Source of the DNA: a virus
IMG/VR virus record: IMGVR_UViG_3300020477_001436
Span: 1-29,775 of that record
Strand: one strand, 5' to 3'
Length of the DNA: 29,775 nucleotides
Position 1 is the stretch's first letter; each line of letters starts with the position of its first letter. Below are positions 4,245 through 20,368 of this stretch, piece after piece. A model generated the notes under the pieces. The model saw nothing but the letters and a program-made list of their open reading frames with translations. It was not told where the DNA came from and searched no databases. Both the position numbers and the translations under genes were made by a program.

Positions 4245-4266
4245 TTTTTTACAGTCGACGTACTAA

Positions 4267-4283
4267 TTTAAATAATATATAAT
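4267..4283 (+). promoter_or_regulatory. AT-rich promoter-like boxes before the B12 radical SAM gene
   Basis: The 44-nt gap after the 688-residue gene contains TTTAAATA (4267-4274, one mismatch to TATAAATA) and TATAAT (4278-4283), which ends 5 nt before the ATG at 4289. I see no convincing -35 box 17 nt upstream. No hairpin terminator is present. AT richness makes chance matches likely. Confidence 0.3.
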
Positions 4284-4288
4284 TAGAT

Positions 4289-5800
4289 ATGAACGATTAT
4301 CACGCGGTATTTGTATACACGCCATTTTCAAAAATAGATGCGATGCCTCTAGCACCAGCTTTATTAAAGGCTATATGTGATCAACACGGCTTAAGAACAA
4401 CTACTTTAGATTATAATATTGAATTACAAATAGATTATAAGGATAAACCATGGGGAGCTGACTTGGCTAGTTACCTAATGCACTTTGTAGAAATGCCTAC
4501 AGAAGCATATGACTGGTATTGGAACTGGGTAGAAACAAAAGCAAAAGAATTAATTAATTTAAACTGTAACTGGATTGGACTTTCTTTATTAAGTTATCAA
4601 AGTTTATGTTTTACACACGACATTTGTTATACAATTAAAAGACTAAAACCTAATCAAAAAATAATTATAGGCGGCAGTGGTATAAGCAAAGATGATAATA
4701 CACGTGTACCTTTTAAAAAAAGTAACAAGTATATGTCAGATATAATGTTAGAAACAGGTCTATGTGATTCTATTGTTATAAACGAAGGCGAAAATGTTTT
4801 AATTGACATTTTAAAAAATAATAAAAAAGGAAAATTTAATGCAGGTAAGCAATTAACACACGAAGAACTAAACGAATTACCCACACCTTCTTATATTGAT
4901 TACAAAACAGACTTATACAAAGATAATTCTAAAATATTTCATTTAACAGAACAGGCAGTTGCCGCAACAATCACTGGATCAAAAGGATGTGTACGAAGAT
5001 GTACATTTTGTGATGTGTATTCATTTGAACCAAAATTTGTTTTTAAAGACGGAGAAAGAATTGCAGAAGAGATGATTGAAATATATGAAACACAAGGTAT
5101 TACTCATTTTATGATGTCTGACTCTCTTATAAACGGATCAATGAAAGCATTTAGACAAATGAATACAGCACTTGCAAAAAAATTACCACGAACTATAAAC
5201 TATTATGGCGAATATATTGCACGACCTGAAGGACAAACAACTGAAGAGGATTACCATTTAATGGCTGAAGCTGGTTGCAAACACGTAATTGTTGGTGTTG
5301 AATCGGGTAGTGAAGCAGTTAGAAATCACATGAAGAAAAAATTTACAAACGACGATTTAAACATAATGATTCAAAGTTTACATAAAGTTGGAATAACTCA
5401 AGAATGGAACTTAATGGTAGGTTACTTAACTGAAACTAGAAAAGACTTTGAGGAAACAATGTCGTTAGTAAAAAGATATAAAGATATTAAATTTCCTAAT
5501 ATGATTGTTAATCCTACTGGTATATTACATATATTTCCAGGCTCACCTTTATTTGATACACATATGAGACAATTAGATATAGAATTTGAGAACATTCCAG
5601 AAGAAGCTGTTGGTTTAAAATGGGATTTTTGGTTTACAAAACAAAATCCTGAAAATACATTTGAAAATAGAGTAGCATGGTGGAATGAGTTAATTGACTT
5701 CTGTTATGAGCATGACTACATGACAGAGTATCGTTATAAAACTAAAAAGCATCTAGCCAAAAGATGTATTGAAGAATATAAAAAAATATTAAGCAAATGA
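4289..5800 (+). CDS. Radical SAM enzyme with B12-binding-like N-terminal domain
   Basis: The 503-residue protein has the layout of class B (B12-dependent type) radical SAM enzymes. An N-terminal Rossmann-like region (about 1-180) contains IGLSLLSYQ and KIIIGGSG strands but lacks the DxHxxG cobalamin-contact motif. The radical SAM barrel carries the cluster motif C234-x3-C238-x2-C241 (GCVRRCTFCD). Downstream are the expected glycine-rich and acidic strands (GVESGSE near 340). Such enzymes cleave S-adenosylmethionine with a 4Fe-4S cluster and methylate or rearrange unreactive carbons in sugars, lipids or peptides; the substrate here is unknown. The stop overlaps the next start as ATGA at 5797-5800, so the two are probably co-translated. 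It sits between packaging and replication genes, away from the main glycan block. Confidence 0.88.
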   Translation: MNDYHAVFVYTPFSKIDAMPLAPALLKAICDQHGLRTTTLDYNIELQIDYKDKPWGADLASYLMHFVEMPTEAYDWYWNWVETKAKELINLNCNWIGLSLLSYQSLCFTHDICYTIKRLKPNQKIIIGGSGISKDDNTRVPFKKSNKYMSDIMLETGLCDSIVINEGENVLIDILKNNKKGKFNAGKQLTHEELNELPTPSYIDYKTDLYKDNSKIFHLTEQAVAATITGSKGCVRRCTFCDVYSFEPKFVFKDGERIAEEMIEIYETQGITHFMMSDSLINGSMKAFRQMNTALAKKLPRTINYYGEYIARPEGQTTEEDYHLMAEAGCKHVIVGVESGSEAVRNHMKKKFTNDDLNIMIQSLHKVGITQEWNLMVGYLTETRKDFEETMSLVKRYKDIKFPNMIVNPTGILHIFPGSPLFDTHMRQLDIEFENIPEEAVGLKWDFWFTKQNPENTFENRVAWWNELIDFCYEHDYMTEYRYKTKKHLAKRCIEEYKKILSK

Positions 5801-6210: not shown

Positions 6211-6239
6211 TAGACAATTCATAAATATAGTAGTATATT
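6211..6239 (+). promoter_or_regulatory. Sigma70-like promoter of gp32, with late-like box inside
   Basis: TAGACA (6211-6216) and TATATT (6234-6239) are separated by 17 bp, one and two mismatches from the bacterial consensus. CATAAATA (6220-6227), one mismatch from the T4 late element, lies between them. Either would give a leader of roughly 55-75 nt, long for this genome, that holds the strong Shine-Dalgarno of gp32. T4 gp32 is autoregulated through its leader; I saw no clear pseudoknot here. Confidence 0.45.
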
Positions 6240-6303: not shown

Positions 6304-7287
6304 ATGGCTACATTGGCTGATATAAGAGCGAAGTTAAAATCCCAAGAAGTGAACCGCTCCACTTCTCAAACAGGTGGCGACAACGCCATTTATCCACACT
6401 GGAACATACAAGAAGGCTCAGAAGCAGTTATTAGATTCTTACCAGATAAGGATCAAGGTAACACGTTTTTCTGGACAGAGAGAAATATGATCAAACTACC
6501 TTTCGCAGGTATTAAAGGTCAAACTGATTCTCGACCAATCCAGGTACAAGTACCTTGTATGGAAATGTACGGAAAAACTTGTCCGGTACTAACGGAAGTT
6601 AGACCATGGTTTAAAGATAAAAGCATGGAAGACATGGGCAGAAAATATTGGAAAAAGAAAAGTTATATTTTCCAAGGTTTTGTTGTTACTAATCCGTTAA
6701 CTGAAGATGCTACACCAGAAAATCCAATTAGAAGATTTATAATTGGACCACAAATCTTTAACATTATTAGATCTGCGTTACTTGATCCAGAGATGGAAGA
6801 GTTACCAACTGATTATGTAAAAGGTGTTGACTTTAGAGTTAATAAAACAACTAAAGGTGGATATGCTGATTACTCAACATCTAAATGGTCAAGAAGAGAA
6901 AGAGCTTTAGAAGAGGCTGAAAGAGCCGCTATCGAAAAGTATGGTTTACATAACTTAAATGACTTTAGACCAAAAGAACCATCAGAAGCAGAAGTTAAAA
7001 TAATCAAAGAATTATTTGAAAAATCTGTTGAAGGTGAGGCTTATGATCTTGAGAAGTATGGACAATACTTTAGACCTGCAGGCGTAGGTGCTAGAGTATC
7101 TATACCAACAGCAAGTAGACCTGCTCCAGTTGAGAAGACTGCTGATCCGGTAAATGCAGAGGTAAAAGTTGCACCTGCACCACAACCAGTTACAGAGTCG
7201 GCTCCAACAGCAACAGCTCCAACAGGAGATAGTGCCAAAAGAGCAGAAGATATCTTGAAACTTATAAGATCGAGACAACAAAAATAA
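6304..7287 (+). CDS. 32: Single-stranded DNA-binding protein, T4 gp32-like
   Basis: The 327-residue protein (T4 gp32 has 301) coats single-stranded DNA at replication forks and recombination intermediates and works with UvsX and UvsY. The N-terminus is basic, followed by the OB-fold core with the typical aromatic and charged stretches (HWNIQEGSEAVIRFLPD, then VPCMEMYGKTCPVL). Only Cys85 and Cys93 stand where T4 has its His/Cys zinc ligands, so the zinc site looks altered or lost. The tail is Pro/Ala/Thr-rich from about 265 and ends in a basic EDILKLIRSRQQK rather than the very acidic T4 tail; marine T4-like relatives end in a similar way, from memory. It has its own promoter and a strong ribosome site, and is followed by uvsX, a typical recombination neighbourhood. 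Confidence 0.92.
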   Translation: MATLADIRAKLKSQEVNRSTSQTGGDNAIYPHWNIQEGSEAVIRFLPDKDQGNTFFWTERNMIKLPFAGIKGQTDSRPIQVQVPCMEMYGKTCPVLTEVRPWFKDKSMEDMGRKYWKKKSYIFQGFVVTNPLTEDATPENPIRRFIIGPQIFNIIRSALLDPEMEELPTDYVKGVDFRVNKTTKGGYADYSTSKWSRRERALEEAERAAIEKYGLHNLNDFRPKEPSEAEVKIIKELFEKSVEGEAYDLEKYGQYFRPAGVGARVSIPTASRPAPVEKTADPVNAEVKVAPAPQPVTESAPTATAPTGDSAKRAEDILKLIRSRQQK

Positions 7288-7301
7288 ACTGACATTTTAC
7301 C

Positions 7302-7331
7302 AGGGCCTTAATTGTTGACAGTTGAGGCCTT
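7302..7331 (+). promoter_or_regulatory. 13-bp RNA hairpin between gp32 and uvsX
   Basis: Two 13-nt arms (7302-7314 and 7319-7331) pair completely around a UUGA loop, with three G-U pairs. The G-U pairs would be mismatches (C-A) on the other strand, so the structure is specific to plus-strand RNA. No U-tract follows, so it is not a standard intrinsic terminator; it could be an attenuator, a processing site or a 3' stabiliser of gp32 mRNA. Confidence 0.65.
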
Positions 7332-7343
7332 GTGTAATATAAT
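7315..7343 (+). promoter_or_regulatory. Consensus sigma70 promoter of uvsX
   Basis: TTGACA (7315-7320) and TATAAT (7338-7343) are perfect consensus hexamers 17 bp apart. Expected initiation is near 7350, only about five nt before the uvsX ATG at 7355. The AAGGA at 7344-7348 would then be used only on longer transcripts arriving from gp32. The -35 box lies in the loop and distal arm of the hairpin. Confidence 0.75.
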
Positions 7344-7354
7344 AAGGATAGGAT

Positions 7355-8410
7355 ATGACAAAACCATTCGACGCAACAAAATTTAGAAAAAGCATAACAA
7401 AGTCTATACAAGGACTTGGCATAGGATTTAATGATCCAACTGACTGGATAAGCACAGGAAACTATGCGTTAAATTATTTAATAAGTGGAGACTTTAACAG
7501 AGGTGTTCCACTAGGCAAAGTAACAGTACTAGCAGGAGAGTCAGGCTCAGGCAAATCATTTTTAGCATCAGGCAATTTAGTACGTAATGCACAAAAAGAA
7601 GGCATCTATGTAATACTAATTGACTCTGAAAATGCATTAGACAAATCATGGCTAGAAGCACTTGGTGTAGATACCGACGAAAAGAAACTATTAAGATTAA
7701 GTTTATCTATGGTAGATGATGTAGCAAAAACAGTTTCAGATTTTATGAAAGGTTACAAAGATGAACACGCAGACGATAAAGAAAACGCACCTAAAGTACT
7801 AATCGTAATTGATAGTTTAGGTATGTTACTAACACCAACTGATGTTAAACAATTCGAAGACGGTGAAATGAAGGGTGACTTAGGTAGAAAGCCGAAGGCA
7901 CTAACGGCGCTAGTGCGTAATTGCGTAAATATGTTTGGGTCTTGGAACGTTGGACTTATAGCAACTAATCACACATACGCATCGCAAGATATGTTTGATC
8001 CTGATGATAAAATATCAGGCGGACAAGGATTTATATATGCAAGTTCAATTGTGATTGCAATGAAGAAATTAAAACTTAAAGAAGACGAAAAAGGTAACAA
8101 AATTACAGAAGTTAGGGGTATTAGAGCGGCTTGTAAAGTTATGAAAACTAGGTTTTCAAAACCATTTGAAAGCGTACAAGTTAAAATCCCTTACGAAACA
8201 GGAATGGATCCTTACAGTGGATTAGTAGACTTATTTGAGAAAAAAGGTGTACTAACACAACAAGGAAACAGACTAAAATACGTTGATTCCTCAGGAAAAG
8301 AGACTTTAGAGTTTAGAAAAGCCTGGGTTGGAACCAAATTGGATATGCTTATGAAAGATTTTGATAAATTATCTACAGCATCATCACAAGATGACCAACT
8401 TAAGGATTAA
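7355..8410 (+). CDS. uvsX: UvsX recombinase (RecA family)
   Basis: The 351-residue protein is the T4-type RecA/Rad51 homologue that forms filaments on single-stranded DNA and drives strand exchange, recombination-dependent replication and repair. Walker A is GESGSGKS at 61-68, the Walker B strand VLIVIDSLGML has Asp153, and SENALD near 91-96 and the downstream loop with SGGQGFIYASS fit the ATPase core. Length is close to T4 UvsX (391) but somewhat shorter, with the usual N-terminal domain (WISTGNYALNYLISG). It lies downstream of gp32, with its own consensus promoter and an AAGGA six nt before the ATG. The next gene begins 3 nt after its stop and uvsY follows, so all three are probably one operon. 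Confidence 0.95.
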   Translation: MTKPFDATKFRKSITKSIQGLGIGFNDPTDWISTGNYALNYLISGDFNRGVPLGKVTVLAGESGSGKSFLASGNLVRNAQKEGIYVILIDSENALDKSWLEALGVDTDEKKLLRLSLSMVDDVAKTVSDFMKGYKDEHADDKENAPKVLIVIDSLGMLLTPTDVKQFEDGEMKGDLGRKPKALTALVRNCVNMFGSWNVGLIATNHTYASQDMFDPDDKISGGQGFIYASSIVIAMKKLKLKEDEKGNKITEVRGIRAACKVMKTRFSKPFESVQVKIPYETGMDPYSGLVDLFEKKGVLTQQGNRLKYVDSSGKETLEFRKAWVGTKLDMLMKDFDKLSTASSQDDQLKD

Positions 8411-9113: not shown

Positions 9114-9693
9114 AATAATCCTTACAGACGTAGACGGCGTATTATTAGAATGGGAGAACCATTTTACTAAATGGATGATATCTCGTGGAGCAAAACTAAA
9201 AAACGAATTTAAAGCAGAATACGATATGCAACGTAGATTTGTTGATGCTACAGAAGATATTAAACTTGCAATAAGAGAATTTAATAAAAGTGCTTGGATG
9301 GGAACACAACCTCCAATGCCAGAATCACAAACGTGGGTAAAACTATTACACGCAGAAGGTTGGACATTTATCCCAATTAGTTCACAAACATCTGACATAC
9401 CTGCACAAGAATTACGTAAAAGAAGACTAGAAGAGCTATTTGGCGAATATGCTTTTTATAACTTTCATATACTAGAAACCGGACAAGACAAAGATAATGT
9501 CCTTGCAGAATTCCACGGAACAGGTTTATGGTGGATTGAAGACAAATGGACCAATGCATTAGCTGGATTAAAGTACGGTCTTAAACCTTTGTTTATAGAT
9601 CATCCATACAATAGAGAATATTCCCACCCCGATATTACCAGAGTAAATAATTGGAAACAGATACACGAGATAGTTTCTAATGATGGTAGATGA
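9097..9693 (+). CDS. HAD-superfamily phosphatase
   Basis: The 198-residue protein has the four haloacid dehalogenase motifs. Motif I is ILTDVDGVLLEW, with Asp11 (nucleophile) and Asp13. Motif II is PISSQ around 94-97, a lysine candidate is Lys132, and motif IV is WIEDKW with Glu148 and Asp149. This points to a magnesium-dependent phosphohydrolase with a small cap between motifs I and II (about 25-80). Possible substrates are nucleotides (as in phage 5'-nucleotidases of this fold) or sugar phosphates, given the glycan genes that follow. Its ATG overlaps the end of uvsY by 17 nt and its own end overlaps the next radical SAM gene by 14 nt, so it bridges the recombination operon and the accessory block. 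Confidence 0.85.
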   Translation: MPTSNRIILTDVDGVLLEWENHFTKWMISRGAKLKNEFKAEYDMQRRFVDATEDIKLAIREFNKSAWMGTQPPMPESQTWVKLLHAEGWTFIPISSQTSDIPAQELRKRRLEELFGEYAFYNFHILETGQDKDNVLAEFHGTGLWWIEDKWTNALAGLKYGLKPLFIDHPYNREYSHPDITRVNNWKQIHEIVSNDGR

Positions 9694-10951
9694 AGAACAA
9701 AAATATTTCCCGATTAAAAAAGATCCTGCTTGTCCTTTAAAATGGAATTGGTCAACAATTTGGACAACAACAGGAGAGACAGCTAGTTGTCATAAATGCA
9801 AAAGAGTACCAATTGACATTGATAAGTTTGACGAATTTCATAACTTACCTCACAAAATAAACGAAAGAAAAATTATGTTAAGTGGCAAATGGCCTACAGT
9901 TGCCAATGGGGGTTCTGGTCATTGCGAAGTTTGTAAAGAAATTGAAGACAATGGTGGATTAAGTGACCGGCAACAAATGAAAGGTATTCCTAATCAAGTG
10001 CCACCTGAATTACGTAATAATCCAACTGCAACTTCTGTTACTCCAAGAATATTTGAACTGTTTGTTTCTAACACTTGCAATCTTCAATGCACATATTGTA
10101 ATACTAGAGATTCAAGTAAAATAAATTTAGAAGCTAAAAAACACGGACCAATTATTTTTCCGGATGGTGAAGCAGTTGGCAGATATCAATATCAAGCACC
10201 TCATCCACAAGCAGTAGGATATTTTAGAAAGTCATTAAAATGGTATGAAGCTAATGGACACAAACTAAAACGATTCCATTTATTAGGCGGAGAACCTTTT
10301 TATATGAAAGAAACTATTCCTGTTTTAGAAACATTAGCAAAAGTTAAAAATAGAAATTTAGAATTTAATATAGTATCAAATATGATGTGTACGCCTGCTA
10401 GATTAGAAATGTATATAGATAAAATTGAACAATTAATTAGAAATAAAAACATTGGTAGATTTGATTTAACAGTTAGTATTGACGGTATTGGACCTGAAGC
10501 AGAGTATTGTAGATCTGGCATGAAATCTGATATAGTTACAAGAAATATGGATTATATTATTAATAAAAAATGGATTATAGTAAATGTAAATTCTGTTATG
10601 ACAAGTCTTACTATTAAACCATATTTAAAATTAATTAGATATGTTAATGAAAAAAGAAAAATTAGAAGGATTGGACAATATTTTGGACAGGATATTGGTA
10701 CACGTGATTTTTTACATCCTATGGCGCAAGGAGGCGAATTTTGGAGAGAAGATATGGAAAAATTAATCAACGAAATAGAGGATTATGATGGAAGATCACA
10801 ATTTCAAGAACACTTAACTGGAATTTGGAAATCGTTTGAAAAATCAAAACCAAACAGGAACTTGATTGATAAATTTAAATTTTATCTAGATGAATTAGAT
10901 AGAAGAAGAAATACTAACTGGAGAAAAATATATCCATACTTGGATATTTAA
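9680..10951 (+). CDS. Radical SAM protein, twitch/SPASM-like
   Basis: The 423-residue enzyme carries the radical SAM motif C133-x3-C137-x2-C140 (NTCNLQCTYCN), followed by a glycine-rich GGEPF (about 203-207) and a TVSIDGIG strand, as in SPASM/twitch enzymes. Before the barrel is a Cys-rich segment: Cys18, Cys37-x2-Cys40 and Cys82-x2-Cys85, in a pattern suited to an auxiliary Fe-S cluster or zinc site. In most relatives the extra cluster is C-terminal, so the N-terminal placement is a point to check. Such enzymes modify peptides, sugars or protein side chains; the substrate is unknown. Start at 9680 or the adjacent ATG at 9683. Coupled to the HAD gene and 12 nt before a glycosyltransferase. 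Confidence 0.87.
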   Translation: MMVDEEQKYFPIKKDPACPLKWNWSTIWTTTGETASCHKCKRVPIDIDKFDEFHNLPHKINERKIMLSGKWPTVANGGSGHCEVCKEIEDNGGLSDRQQMKGIPNQVPPELRNNPTATSVTPRIFELFVSNTCNLQCTYCNTRDSSKINLEAKKHGPIIFPDGEAVGRYQYQAPHPQAVGYFRKSLKWYEANGHKLKRFHLLGGEPFYMKETIPVLETLAKVKNRNLEFNIVSNMMCTPARLEMYIDKIEQLIRNKNIGRFDLTVSIDGIGPEAEYCRSGMKSDIVTRNMDYIINKKWIIVNVNSVMTSLTIKPYLKLIRYVNEKRKIRRIGQYFGQDIGTRDFLHPMAQGGEFWREDMEKLINEIEDYDGRSQFQEHLTGIWKSFEKSKPNRNLIDKFKFYLDELDRRRNTNWRKIYPYLDI

Positions 10952-12399: not shown

Positions 12400-13413
12400 A
12401 TGAAAAAACTTTTTTATTCACCAATTCCGTTATGTTTAGCATTTGAGCCTATTAATTTATGCAACGCAAAATGTTTTTGTTGTCCTTATACTGAATTTAG
12501 TGAGGACAAAACTTTCATTACTCAAAAAATGTCAAAGGAACAAATTACACAATTAATAGAAAACTGGGCACGACTATTAAAAAAACATAAAATTAAACCA
12601 TGGAGCGTCGCTATATTGCCATGGAGATATTCTGATCCTTTAGTAAATCCACACCTCGGTCTTGTTTTAGAATTAGCAGACAAACATCAATTAAATGTTA
12701 GTCTAACTACTAACGCAATTTCGTTTGGTAAACGACAATGTGATTTATTGCAAAAATATAAACATACACTATCAAAAATATTTGTATCAGTAATTGGATT
12801 TACAGAAAAACAAGTATGGGAGCAAATGAAAATTAGTAGAGAAAAAACTTTTCAAAGTCTTGAATTTGTTAGAGACAACTATCCGGATATTTCTAAACTA
12901 ATGGATATAGCAATTAAAAATAGAAATAACACTATTGCGCCAATAGATACAATAGAAGAATATCAAAATAGAACACTAGGTAAAGCTAAAACTAAAGTAA
13001 ATTGGATTAGTAATAGACTAGGTAAAGGGGATGATCAATGGGTACCAAAAGGTAATTGGGCACCCTCTGATAAAAGTTTTGTAAATGGATGTGAATTAAC
13101 TCCAGGAAAAATACTAAATCGTTTAGAAATAATGGTTAGTGGAAGAGCGGCACTTTGTTGTGATATGTCTTATGATCGTAATTTTCCTAAAGAAAAAGTT
13201 GATTATGGTAATGTATTTGAAATCGGTATAGAAGGTGTGTGGGCTAATTTAACTAAAGAACACCAATTAATATATGAACAAAAATATTCAGCTCGTAAAT
13301 TAAAGTTAATTTGTAATGATTGTAATAGAGCCGGTATTAGTAATGGTGGGTTTACAATGGACAAGACAATAAGAATGCAAGAAAGAAATAGAGAGAAGTT
13401 CTTTACAAACTAA
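12400..13413 (+). CDS. Radical SAM protein with SPASM-type C-terminal Cys cluster
   Basis: The 337-residue enzyme has the cluster motif C21-x3-C25-x2-C28 (NLCNAKCFCCPY; an extra Cys27 is inside) close to the N-terminus. It continues with barrel strands such as VSLTTNA. The C-terminal part has Cys231 in NGCEL, Cys253-Cys254 in AALCCDM, and Cys305-x2-Cys308 (ICNDCN), the arrangement of a SPASM domain that binds one or two auxiliary 4Fe-4S clusters. SPASM enzymes oxidise or cross-link peptides, activate sulfatases, or act on sugars as in aminoglycoside pathways. Nothing here identifies the substrate; the surrounding glycan genes favour a sugar or glycoprotein. It is followed after 8 nt by an oxygenase. 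Confidence 0.88.
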   Translation: MKKLFYSPIPLCLAFEPINLCNAKCFCCPYTEFSEDKTFITQKMSKEQITQLIENWARLLKKHKIKPWSVAILPWRYSDPLVNPHLGLVLELADKHQLNVSLTTNAISFGKRQCDLLQKYKHTLSKIFVSVIGFTEKQVWEQMKISREKTFQSLEFVRDNYPDISKLMDIAIKNRNNTIAPIDTIEEYQNRTLGKAKTKVNWISNRLGKGDDQWVPKGNWAPSDKSFVNGCELTPGKILNRLEIMVSGRAALCCDMSYDRNFPKEKVDYGNVFEIGIEGVWANLTKEHQLIYEQKYSARKLKLICNDCNRAGISNGGFTMDKTIRMQERNREKFFTN

Positions 13414-18483: not shown

Positions 18484-19575
18484 ATGCAGACAGTGAAAAA
18501 CATTACCAATATTAAGTATTTTTTAGATCGCTTTGAAACAGTGGATCATGAGTATGGATTTGATGTAAAATATCACGAGAAAGCACCTAAAACACATTTT
18601 CATAGTTTGCCGACGTTTGTTGCTGAATTTAGAAACTGCTCAGTCAACACTTTGCCTTGTTTAATTACTGAGGACAGACACCTTATAACTAACAACATCT
18701 GGCCTTTATTACACAAATACAAACACAAACCAAAAAAGACACACGGCTTATGGGATAATTGGACAGAGCCAACTATTCAAATTACTATGCCTCCAATTAC
18801 AAAACAACTTGATGGTGACAAATTTGTATGGTTACCTATAGACAAAGAAAGTGCAAATAATCCATGGCACATTTGGATTGACGTTATATCTAAATTTAGA
18901 TTAATAGAAAAAAGAGGTACAACAACTTTTAATAATTTTATCTATGTGTTAAGCAATCCTAGTGCTTACTTTGATAAGGTTGTTAAAGAAATGTTTCCTG
19001 ATATAAAATATTATGTAATGCCAGAAGGCGAAACTTGGCGTTTCCAACATTTAATTGTTCCGTCAATGAGTAATCATGATGATGGCGTAACAACACCTCA
19101 TCTTGCTCCATGGTTAAGACATTTTAAAGGATTGTTTGGATTCAAAGGATTAACTCCACATAGAAAAATAATTGTACTACGTCCTGGAGCAAAAACGAGA
19201 AAAATGATTAACTCGGACGAACTGATACTAGCATTAAAAGGTTGGGAAACAGTTACTTTAGAAAACATGACTATAAAAGAACAATTTAAAACTTTTGCAG
19301 AAGCAACACACGTTCTTGCGGCTCATGGTGCAGGACTAACAAATTTGCTTTGGTGCAAGGCTGGTACAAAAGTAATTGAAATACAAGATCCTAATATGTT
19401 ACACAAAAAAGTTTATCCTTTATTATCACATCATTTACAATTAAAACACGAAATATATCTTGCAAAAACAATACCAATACAATATAACAAAACAAGACCT
19501 AAAGGTGTTAAAAGAATTAATGATTTAATAAATTTTGAAGTTAATATACCAGATTTAATTAGACATTTAGATTGA
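18484..19575 (+). CDS. Glycosyltransferase, GT61-like (DUF563)
   Basis: The 363-residue protein matches the GT61/DUF563 pattern. It has RKIIVLRPGAKTRKMIN (a nucleotide-sugar-site strand), a long helix (FKTFAEATHVLAAHGAGLTN) in which the AHGAGL signature is diagnostic, and then WCKAGTKVIEIQ. Family members transfer xylose or related sugars onto glycans, and bacterial members are found in polysaccharide clusters. An N-terminal domain of about 160 residues with many Trp/His/Lys precedes the catalytic part. The start at 18484 is the first ATG after the divergent spacer; no Shine-Dalgarno is seen. Next gene begins 19 nt downstream. Confidence 0.85.
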   Translation: MQTVKNITNIKYFLDRFETVDHEYGFDVKYHEKAPKTHFHSLPTFVAEFRNCSVNTLPCLITEDRHLITNNIWPLLHKYKHKPKKTHGLWDNWTEPTIQITMPPITKQLDGDKFVWLPIDKESANNPWHIWIDVISKFRLIEKRGTTTFNNFIYVLSNPSAYFDKVVKEMFPDIKYYVMPEGETWRFQHLIVPSMSNHDDGVTTPHLAPWLRHFKGLFGFKGLTPHRKIIVLRPGAKTRKMINSDELILALKGWETVTLENMTIKEQFKTFAEATHVLAAHGAGLTNLLWCKAGTKVIEIQDPNMLHKKVYPLLSHHLQLKHEIYLAKTIPIQYNKTRPKGVKRINDLINFEVNIPDLIRHLD

Positions 19576-19594
19576 TACAAAGTATAATAAAAAT

Positions 19595-20368
19595 ATGTAT
19601 TCGTTGCTACAGAAAAAACCAAAACTTATAACAGATCCATATCCACACGTTGTAATAGAAGAAGCTTTACCGTGGGAGTTATATGAGAAGCTAGAAGCAG
19701 AATTTCCAGAAAAAACTTTACTAGCAACTGAACCATTTGACAACGGTATATGTTATAGAATGAAATCAGATGTTTTGTTACAACCAACATTTGAATCTAC
19801 CCTATGGAGAGAATTTGCAAACTATCATACATCACCTGAATGGTTTATGGAAGTATACGAATTGTTTAAACCATGGCTAGAAGATAAACCTAAACTAACA
19901 AGTTTGCTACCTAACCTTAAAGAAAACTTAGGTGCAAGAGGATGGGCAGGCAAAGAAATTAATTTATGGAGTGATTGTCAAGTTGTTATGCACAAACCAA
20001 TAACAGAAAAAACATCTAGAACAGCACACATAGACAATCCAATGGAAATGTTTGCTGGATTGTTGTATATGCCTTATAAAAATGATACAAGCACTGGCGG
20101 TAACTTTCAAATACATTCAACAAAAAATAATATAAGAAAAGTAGATATGAACGGTGGTAGACAAGTATATGCTGAGGATTTAGGTACTGTACATACCACA
20201 GTACCATACAAAAGAAATACGTTTGTAATGTTTTGTAATGCAAATCCTAATACAGTACACAGTGTATCAAACAGAATTAATCCAACTATGTACAGAAGAA
20301 GTGTAAACATTATTGCAGAGTTTAAAAGGAATTATGCAAAAATGTATAACGTTGAGGAAATAAGATGA
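19595..20368 (+). CDS. 2-oxoglutarate/Fe(II) oxygenase
   Basis: The 257-residue protein has a canonical His-x-Asp...His...Arg iron and 2-oxoglutarate site: His145-Ile-Asp147 in RTAHIDNPM, His222 in NTVHSVS and Arg234/235 in TMYRRSVNI. The segment from GLLYMPYKND through GGNFQIH is the jelly-roll core, close to prolyl-4-hydroxylase-type phage proteins. The N-terminal opening (DPYPHVVIEEALPWELYEKL) resembles that of the oxygenase at 13422, so both may share an ancestor. It hydroxylates an unidentified substrate, perhaps a sugar or a glycoprotein side chain. The stop overlaps the next gene as ATGA. A short AT-rich gap with TATAAT (within GTATAATAAAA) precedes its ATG. Confidence 0.85.
   Translation: MYSLLQKKPKLITDPYPHVVIEEALPWELYEKLEAEFPEKTLLATEPFDNGICYRMKSDVLLQPTFESTLWREFANYHTSPEWFMEVYELFKPWLEDKPKLTSLLPNLKENLGARGWAGKEINLWSDCQVVMHKPITEKTSRTAHIDNPMEMFAGLLYMPYKNDTSTGGNFQIHSTKNNIRKVDMNGGRQVYAEDLGTVHTTVPYKRNTFVMFCNANPNTVHSVSNRINPTMYRRSVNIIAEFKRNYAKMYNVEEIR

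Follow-up and report, generated by a model that had tools for sequence, protein, structure and literature searches.

A predicted sigma70-type promoter overlaps an RNA hairpin between the gp32-like and uvsX genes of a virus and its relatives

We analysed the 67-base gap between a gp32-like gene (end at 7287) and uvsX (start at 7355) in the window, by which we mean the whole stretch of 29,775 bases of a virus record studied here, and it is likely that this gap holds two control elements in the same bases, a sigma70-type promoter for uvsX and an RNA hairpin for the 3' end of gp32 transcripts. The comparison of relatives indicates that both overlapping signals have been kept while most of the letters around them changed. 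The structure of the hairpin, its covariation, the geometry of the promoter and the separability of the two parts can be read from the sequences themselves. The PHROG labels of the flanking genes are 'single strand DNA binding protein' (6304-7287) and 'UvsX-like recombinase' (7355-8410), and the features of the region are as follows:

6220 to 6227, plus strand: octamer CATAAATA upstream of gp32, presumably T4-late-promoter-like (motif scan; a one-letter variant of TATAAATA)
6304 to 7287, plus strand: gp32-like single-stranded DNA binding protein gene, the upstream neighbour (ORF; PF08804, E 1e-7; phrog_1192, E 8e-63)
7301 to 7314, plus strand: 5' arm of the hairpin, CAGGGCCTTAATTG, with an outer extension at 7297-7300 (fold; pairing kept in relatives)
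7315 to 7320, plus strand: predicted -35 hexamer TTGACA, of which bases 7315-7318 are the hairpin loop UUGA and the last two open the 3' arm
7319 to 7332, plus strand: 3' arm of the hairpin, CAGTTGAGGCCTTG, which doubles as most of the 17-nt spacer, with an outer extension at 7334-7337 (fold)
7338 to 7343, plus strand: predicted -10 hexamer TATAAT, separated from the -35 hexamer by a 17-nt spacer
7344 to 7354, plus strand: discriminator and predicted 5-nt leader (sequence; spacing-class analysis)
7355 to 8410, plus strand: uvsX, a RecA-like recombinase gene, the downstream neighbour (ORF; PF00154; phrog_97)

Only two octamers of the type NATAAATA occur in the window, TATAAATA at 2164-2171 (upstream of ORF 2178) and CATAAATA at 6220-6227, both of which are candidate late promoters of the T4 type. 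Three radical SAM genes (Pfam PF04055) are located near gp32 and uvsX, at 4289-5800, 9680-10951 and 12400-13413.

The original prediction had named a perfect sigma70 promoter in this gap, and TTGACA-17-TATAAT (7315-7343) is indeed the sole 12/12 match to a sigma70-type promoter on either strand of the 29,775 bases, where 0.09 such matches are expected by chance (dinucleotide shuffles of the window, spacing 16-18 nt); the promoter is conserved in the window's clade as well. At the level of sequence the site has everything that defines a sigma70-type promoter (-35 TTGACA, -10 TATAAT, a spacing of 16-18 nt). Among the 35 distinct sequences in which promoter and hairpin are fused, the spacer measures 17 nt in 34 and 18 nt in one, the -10 box reads TAATAT (16), TAAAAT (9), TATAAT (7) or TATTAT (3), and the -35 hexamer TTGACA (14), TTGACG (12) or TTGACT (9). 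Because the fused sequences were selected by the presence of TTGAC, its conservation among them is by construction and is not independent evidence; independent of this selection are the spacing, the -10 box and the unselected count of promoters given below (41 of 43 intervals). Summed over 22 related records, the full promoter pattern with at most one mismatch gave 113 matches versus 17 for the reversed control, and two of the 22 records contained no match at this threshold. A count over 1.05 Mb of loci, with duplicates, gave 56 hairpins that enclose the TTGAC of a promoter; 52 lie between gp32 and uvsX and four elsewhere. T4 middle promoters of the MotA class have a MotA box around -30; inspection of the window by eye revealed no such box, the -35 region being TTGACAGTTGAGG without a TGCTT core. 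In a 219-kb record (G015; first 40 kb, L182-L183) perfect TTGACA-17-TATAAT sites are densely clustered on one strand, with 12 of the 15 exact matches at 2.7-34.3 kb, and the cluster resembles an early gene region.

In plus-strand RNA the stem consists of 14 bp (7301-7314 with 7319-7332) and is closed by the loop UUGA (7315-7318), and RNAfold adds four further pairs beyond a 1-nt bulge (7297-7300 with 7334-7337). The hairpin and its UUGA loop had been predicted correctly; the stem had been given as 13 bp, one closing C-G pair having been missed. Folding energies are -24.1 kcal/mol for the plus strand (z -4.2; equalled by 1 of 200 shuffles) and -11.9 kcal/mol for the minus strand (z -1.3). The window's stem contains three G-U pairs (G7303-U7330, U7309-G7324 and U7312-G7321), which become A-C mismatches on the minus strand; the earlier claim that such pairs make sense only in plus-strand RNA is in line with the relatives, in which the non-Watson-Crick cells of 33 fused sequences, under strand-neutral scoring, comprised 22 G-T versus 2 A-C, plus 11 of other kinds (20 G-T versus 3 A-C in an earlier, less clean set that took in the non-members L042, L134, L044, L126 and L041). 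Stability favoured the plus strand in 26 of the 33 fused sequences (p 3.5e-4); among far relatives it did so in 26 of 37 (p 0.002).

Conservation of the two arms in relatives, on which the original prediction had staked the hairpin, turned out to be a conservation of pairing and not of sequence. The 33 fused sequences contain 22 distinct 5' arms and 23 distinct 3' arms, and a sequence's own arms paired at 97.5% of positions versus 48% when arms were swapped between sequences (78% when the best of seven registers was allowed for the swapped arms); the arm register of L096 was set by a wider search, and L012 and L017, whose contigs start within the 5' arm or only shortly ahead of it, did not enter the pairing tests. 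Since the arm families shift register by one, the MAFFT alignment of all 33 sequences was not used for counting pairs, which was done on 17 sequences of one register family (16 distinct), including L003, which is off by one and was partly scored as broken. In the 16 distinct rows 94.3% of the cells were paired versus 18-57% when the arms were slid, double changes occurred in 4 of the 11 stem pairs, and the covariation score was 0.279 versus 0.178 in shuffles (reached by none of 500), counts which are not independent events because the sequences are related; further pair types showed no excess over shuffles in these rows (9 versus 9.0; 380 of 500). Where the sixth base of the -35 hexamer lies in the stem, it covaries with its partner (A-T, G-T/C, T-A/G), with one A-A exception. 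From this pattern we conclude that the hairpin is a structured RNA element of the plus strand, the pairing of which is kept through two-sided changes. No Rfam family matched above its gathering score (one sub-threshold match, 14.6 versus 40 bits, was located beside the element), and a known RNA family was rejected on this basis.

Relatives were gathered by uvsX and gp32 searches of viral contigs (the best 80 of each search), which yielded at least 154 loci; adding the window, and also L155, which is a part of the window, brings the comparison set to 156 sequences, 138 of which contain both genes. One relative (L081) has a gp32-uvsX interval identical to the window's. By UvsX protein the closest named phages are Sinorhizobium phage Phosso (69%), Agrobacterium phage Atu_ph07 (68%) and Vibrio phage 2.275.O (64%), whose records each exceed 340 kb. 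We defined the window's clade by a UvsX identity of at least 79.5%, and it comprises 43 distinct gp32-uvsX intervals, 41 of which kept the promoter. In 33 intervals TTGAC lies inside the hairpin (32 by automated scan and L008 by inspection); in eight (seven by scan and L118) a gene has been inserted, the hairpin is gone, and TTGACA-17-TATAAT is found at the 3' end of the inserted gene, so re-made directly before uvsX or before a small gene that precedes uvsX; and in two (L024, L026) the hairpin is present and the promoter absent. The hairpin is thus dispensable, having been lost in eight of the 43 clade intervals. Far relatives provided 48 distinct intervals shorter than 111 nt: 31 have a hairpin without an embedded promoter (26 of these without any promoter and five, L147, L042, L044, L052 and L032, with a separate promoter after the hairpin), 11 have almost no gap, and in six the hairpin scan found none. 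All six named jumbo phage isolates that we examined have a hairpin behind gp32, and in none of the six did inspection by eye reveal TTGAC in the gp32-uvsX interval. In a tree built by a quick method all 35 fused rows (L081, L084, L025 and L094 being among those labelled fused by rule) fell into one clade of 44 rows with support 100, which also holds seven inserted-gene rows and the two promoterless rows. Because each element occurs without the other in relatives, the comparison assigns the hairpin to gp32 and the promoter to uvsX, with the two fused in the window's clade.

Several other genes and sequences were encountered in these intervals. The inserted gene of about 270 codons (L098, L016, L011, L021, L029, L091, L104, L118) carries the 12/12 promoter within its own 3' coding end and had no Pfam match in the one copy examined; its 7 rows are dispersed in the uvsX tree, where they take 6 changes, which suggests that it was gained, lost or swapped several times. 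A conserved gene for a 32-residue peptide (MKxEIKKAIDWILYKQxPAW...LWIL), judged by eye to be of membrane type and without a Pfam match, is found ahead of uvsX in many relatives; the window lacks it. It lies between promoter/hairpin and uvsX in L084, L008, L028, L024 and others. In L045, L063 and L073 a longer conserved sequence (GAGTTCCGGCAAAAACCTCC...GGTAACCAGCGAGGTCTC and similar) occupies the place where other relatives have the simple hairpin.

With +1 placed by the usual rule, 7 nt after the -10 box, the window's transcript is predicted to start at about 7350 and to have 5 nt ahead of the ATG (7355), which agrees, at the level of a sequence prediction, with the near-leaderless uvsX RNA originally proposed. 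The Shine-Dalgarno-like AAGGA at 7344-7348 is upstream of this predicted start, so that read-through RNA alone would carry it; in the window a further AGGA directly precedes the uvsX ATG. The distance from the -10 box to the next start codon falls into three classes among the 35 fused sequences. It is 5-7 nt in 16, including 12 with exactly 6 nt, in which the predicted +1 falls on the A of AUG; these short-spaced sequences have no Shine-Dalgarno motif in the predicted leader, and 13 of the 16 have none anywhere. It is 9-11 nt in seven (the window, with 11 nt, among them), six of which have AAGG or AGGA in the discriminator, a motif that would be whole only on read-through RNA since it lies upstream of the predicted start; that a Shine-Dalgarno-like motif would be present only in read-through RNA in six of seven suggests that this RNA may also be translated. 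It is 18-23 nt in the remaining 12, and all 12 have a Shine-Dalgarno-like motif inside the predicted leader. The first gene behind the promoter is not uvsX but the short membrane-type peptide gene in 13 of the 35. In clade contigs a start codon follows the -10 box by 5-7 nt in 16 of 39 promoter-start pairs (L174 and L201 among these pairs are the gp32-uvsX element itself) versus 1 of 6 and 0 of 4 for control patterns, and in the 219-kb relative in 6 of 23 pairs versus 0 of 2 and 0 of 2. By these counts a spacing that predicts leaderless mRNA is general at other promoters of these phages. Two further genes of the window are predicted to be leaderless: ORF 19595, which starts 6 nt behind the -10 box of TAGACA-17-TATAAT (19560-19595), and ORF 4289, which starts 5 nt behind that of TCGACG-17-TATAAT (4255-4289), a site with a weak -35.

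The strongest rival explanation is that the hairpin is an intrinsic or factor-assisted terminator of gp32 which the uvsX promoter merely overlaps. It is attractive since the hairpin follows soon after the stop codon with a strong, GC-rich stem, T-rich tails accompany the gp32 hairpin in the isolates SCTP-2 and RaK2, and canonical terminators exist in the same phages, some followed directly by ATAAATA boxes, which would make the adjacency of terminator and promoter a habit of these phages. The boxes resemble T4 late promoters, and a U-run terminator directly followed by such a box is a recurring unit (L162:10975, L176:596, L180:15491, L196:3785, L199:14090). However, the gp32 hairpin has the GC-rich stem of an intrinsic terminator without its U-run, the longest T-run being at most 2 in all 32 distinct fused hairpins and, in far relatives, not exceeding 3 in 42 of 50 hairpins. 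Among 30 post-stop hairpins in 467 kb of the clade, 14 are the gp32-uvsX element, all with T-runs of 1-2, whereas many of the other 16, in the same contigs, carry a U-rich tail or a run of U within the 3' arm, and several of these others are followed by ATAAATA boxes. Furthermore, the motif confined to read-through RNA in six of the seven sequences of the window's spacing class hints that transcription does read through. Plain U-run termination is therefore unlikely, given that other terminators in the same contigs do have U-runs; an intrinsic terminator was rejected as the main reading for want of a U-run, and we regard termination in the wider sense, factor-assisted or weak termination included, as an unlikely account. 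Instead, the hairpin is probably a stability or processing element of the gp32 3' end. In T4 the gene 32 mRNA is described as the most stable T4 mRNA, with an RNase E cut near its stop codon (PMC3014915, in the part available), which makes such a role a reasonable one here.

The remaining alternatives differ in what the shared bases would do. In T4 the leader hairpins of genes e, soc, 49 and I-TevI have a late promoter in the DNA of their 5' strand, and the gene e-type hairpin hides the ribosome site (available text of PMC3014915); by analogy, the present hairpin might hide the uvsX start on read-through RNA while promoter-derived transcripts, which would lack the entire hairpin, escape. The geometry speaks against this, because both arms lie upstream of the start region, the outermost pair reaching no further than 7337 and stopping 18 nt short of the ATG, because a fold of 7285-7357 leaves most of AAGGAUAGGAUAUG unpaired, and because 13 of the 16 sequences predicted to be leaderless have no Shine-Dalgarno motif to hide; we rejected this device, which we consider improbable. 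It is more improbable still that the inverted repeat is a DNA operator, bound by a repressor or activator dimer that regulates uvsX. A palindrome centred on the -35 box, as this one is, occupies a classical operator position, but an operator would keep its sequence, whereas the 33 sequences, with pairing kept, share no conserved half-site (22 different 5' arms, 23 different 3' arms); a DNA dyad would give no reason for the bias of 22 G-T versus 2 A-C, and far relatives have the hairpin without the promoter. Arm divergence and strand bias led us to reject the operator, and also a DNA hairpin promoter of the kind used by the N4 virion RNA polymerase, a phage polymerase, in which the palindrome would be extruded as a cruciform and its single-stranded loop or stem recognised. 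A promoter element does lie in the loop of a palindrome here, yet the site has all parts of a double-stranded sigma70-type promoter, eight relatives that lack the palindrome still have the promoter, and the strand bias favours one strand only, which leaves this idea with hardly any credibility. Least probable of all is a chance overlap of a promoter-like site with a hairpin: the AT-rich genome does offer many weak promoter-like sites (68 in the window's first half, as in shuffles), but a 12/12 match, a promoter in 41 of 43 intervals, a fixed 17-nt spacing and 52 of 56 overlaps at one locus argue strongly against it.

We thus return to two independent control elements written in the same 43 bases, for which we infer promoter activity, the start site, the gp32 3' end and the role in stability. 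The hairpin, found behind gp32 in most relatives and in cultured jumbo phages, would be the older element, which on plus-strand transcripts arriving from upstream would close the 3' end of the gp32 message, most likely as a barrier in stability or processing and not as a U-run terminator. In the window's clade the loop of the hairpin would have come to hold the -35 box, with the -10 box directly after the 3' arm, and the arms could drift by paired changes as TTGAC and the 17-nt spacing stayed fixed. The sigma70-type promoter, presumably used by host RNA polymerase, would start a leaderless or near-leaderless mRNA of uvsX or, in some relatives, of the small membrane-type peptide gene put before uvsX. 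The outcome may be a gene boundary of minimal space, with a hairpin-ended gp32 RNA, an independently started uvsX RNA and some read-through. A further-reaching interpretation, which we offer as a tentative one, is that the boundary is a dual code, selected both as a double-stranded DNA promoter (the -35 at the centre of the palindrome, the spacer formed by the 3' arm) and as a single-stranded RNA hairpin, which might end one replication message and start another, leaderless one, might set the amounts of gp32 and UvsX apart, and might have in its leader length an evolvable switch in ribosome recruitment.

Promoters and RNA hairpins of phages are usually annotated apart, and here both codes appear to occupy the same bases in dozens of relatives, which makes this boundary a testable case of overlapping selection at the DNA and RNA levels, with the -35 in the loop and the arms changing in pairs. 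An ATG exactly 6 nt after the -10 box may serve to predict leaderless transcription across a large group of uncultured phages related to jumbo phages, and the gp32-uvsX pair itself is central to replication and recombination of the T4 type.

In comparison with known systems, promoter bases shared with an RNA hairpin, a separate uvsX promoter and predicted leaderless phage promoters are already known from the sources in the parts available. Apparently new is that the loop of a covarying 3' hairpin, belonging to the upstream gene, contains a perfect -35: in the open-licence literature we found no description of a sigma70 promoter so placed. The N4 promoters likewise have promoter sequence in a hairpin, but in contrast to N4 the evidence here points to RNA and to a sigma70-type promoter. 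In T4, gene 32 is not known to be adjacent to uvsX. As in T4 genes e, soc, 49 and I-TevI, promoter and RNA hairpin share bases, so that read-through RNA would carry the hairpin and promoter-derived RNA would not; unlike in that group, as far as the available text of PMC3014915 describes it, the hairpin lies behind gp32, the uvsX start is uncovered, and the promoter, of the sigma70 type, places its -35 hexamer in the loop. T4, too, has a promoter of its own immediately before uvsX, the middle promoter PuvsX, with a perfect -10; according to PMC2988021 PuvsX belongs to the MotA class and has a weak -35 and UP elements, whereas the -35 is perfect here. The T4 gene 32 mRNA is likewise subject to control at its 3' end, although the available text of PMC3014915 describes no 3' hairpin for it, in contrast to the hairpin found here behind gp32. 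Leaderless mRNAs have been mapped in Sinorhizobium meliloti (171 starts; PMC3616915, in part), and leaderless SigA promoters were predicted in Cluster O mycobacteriophages (PMC4351075, in part); unlike those cases, as the sources present them in the parts available, the promoter described here is nested in the covarying RNA hairpin of the upstream gene, and its predicted leader varies among relatives, being about 0, 3-5 or 12-17 nt long.
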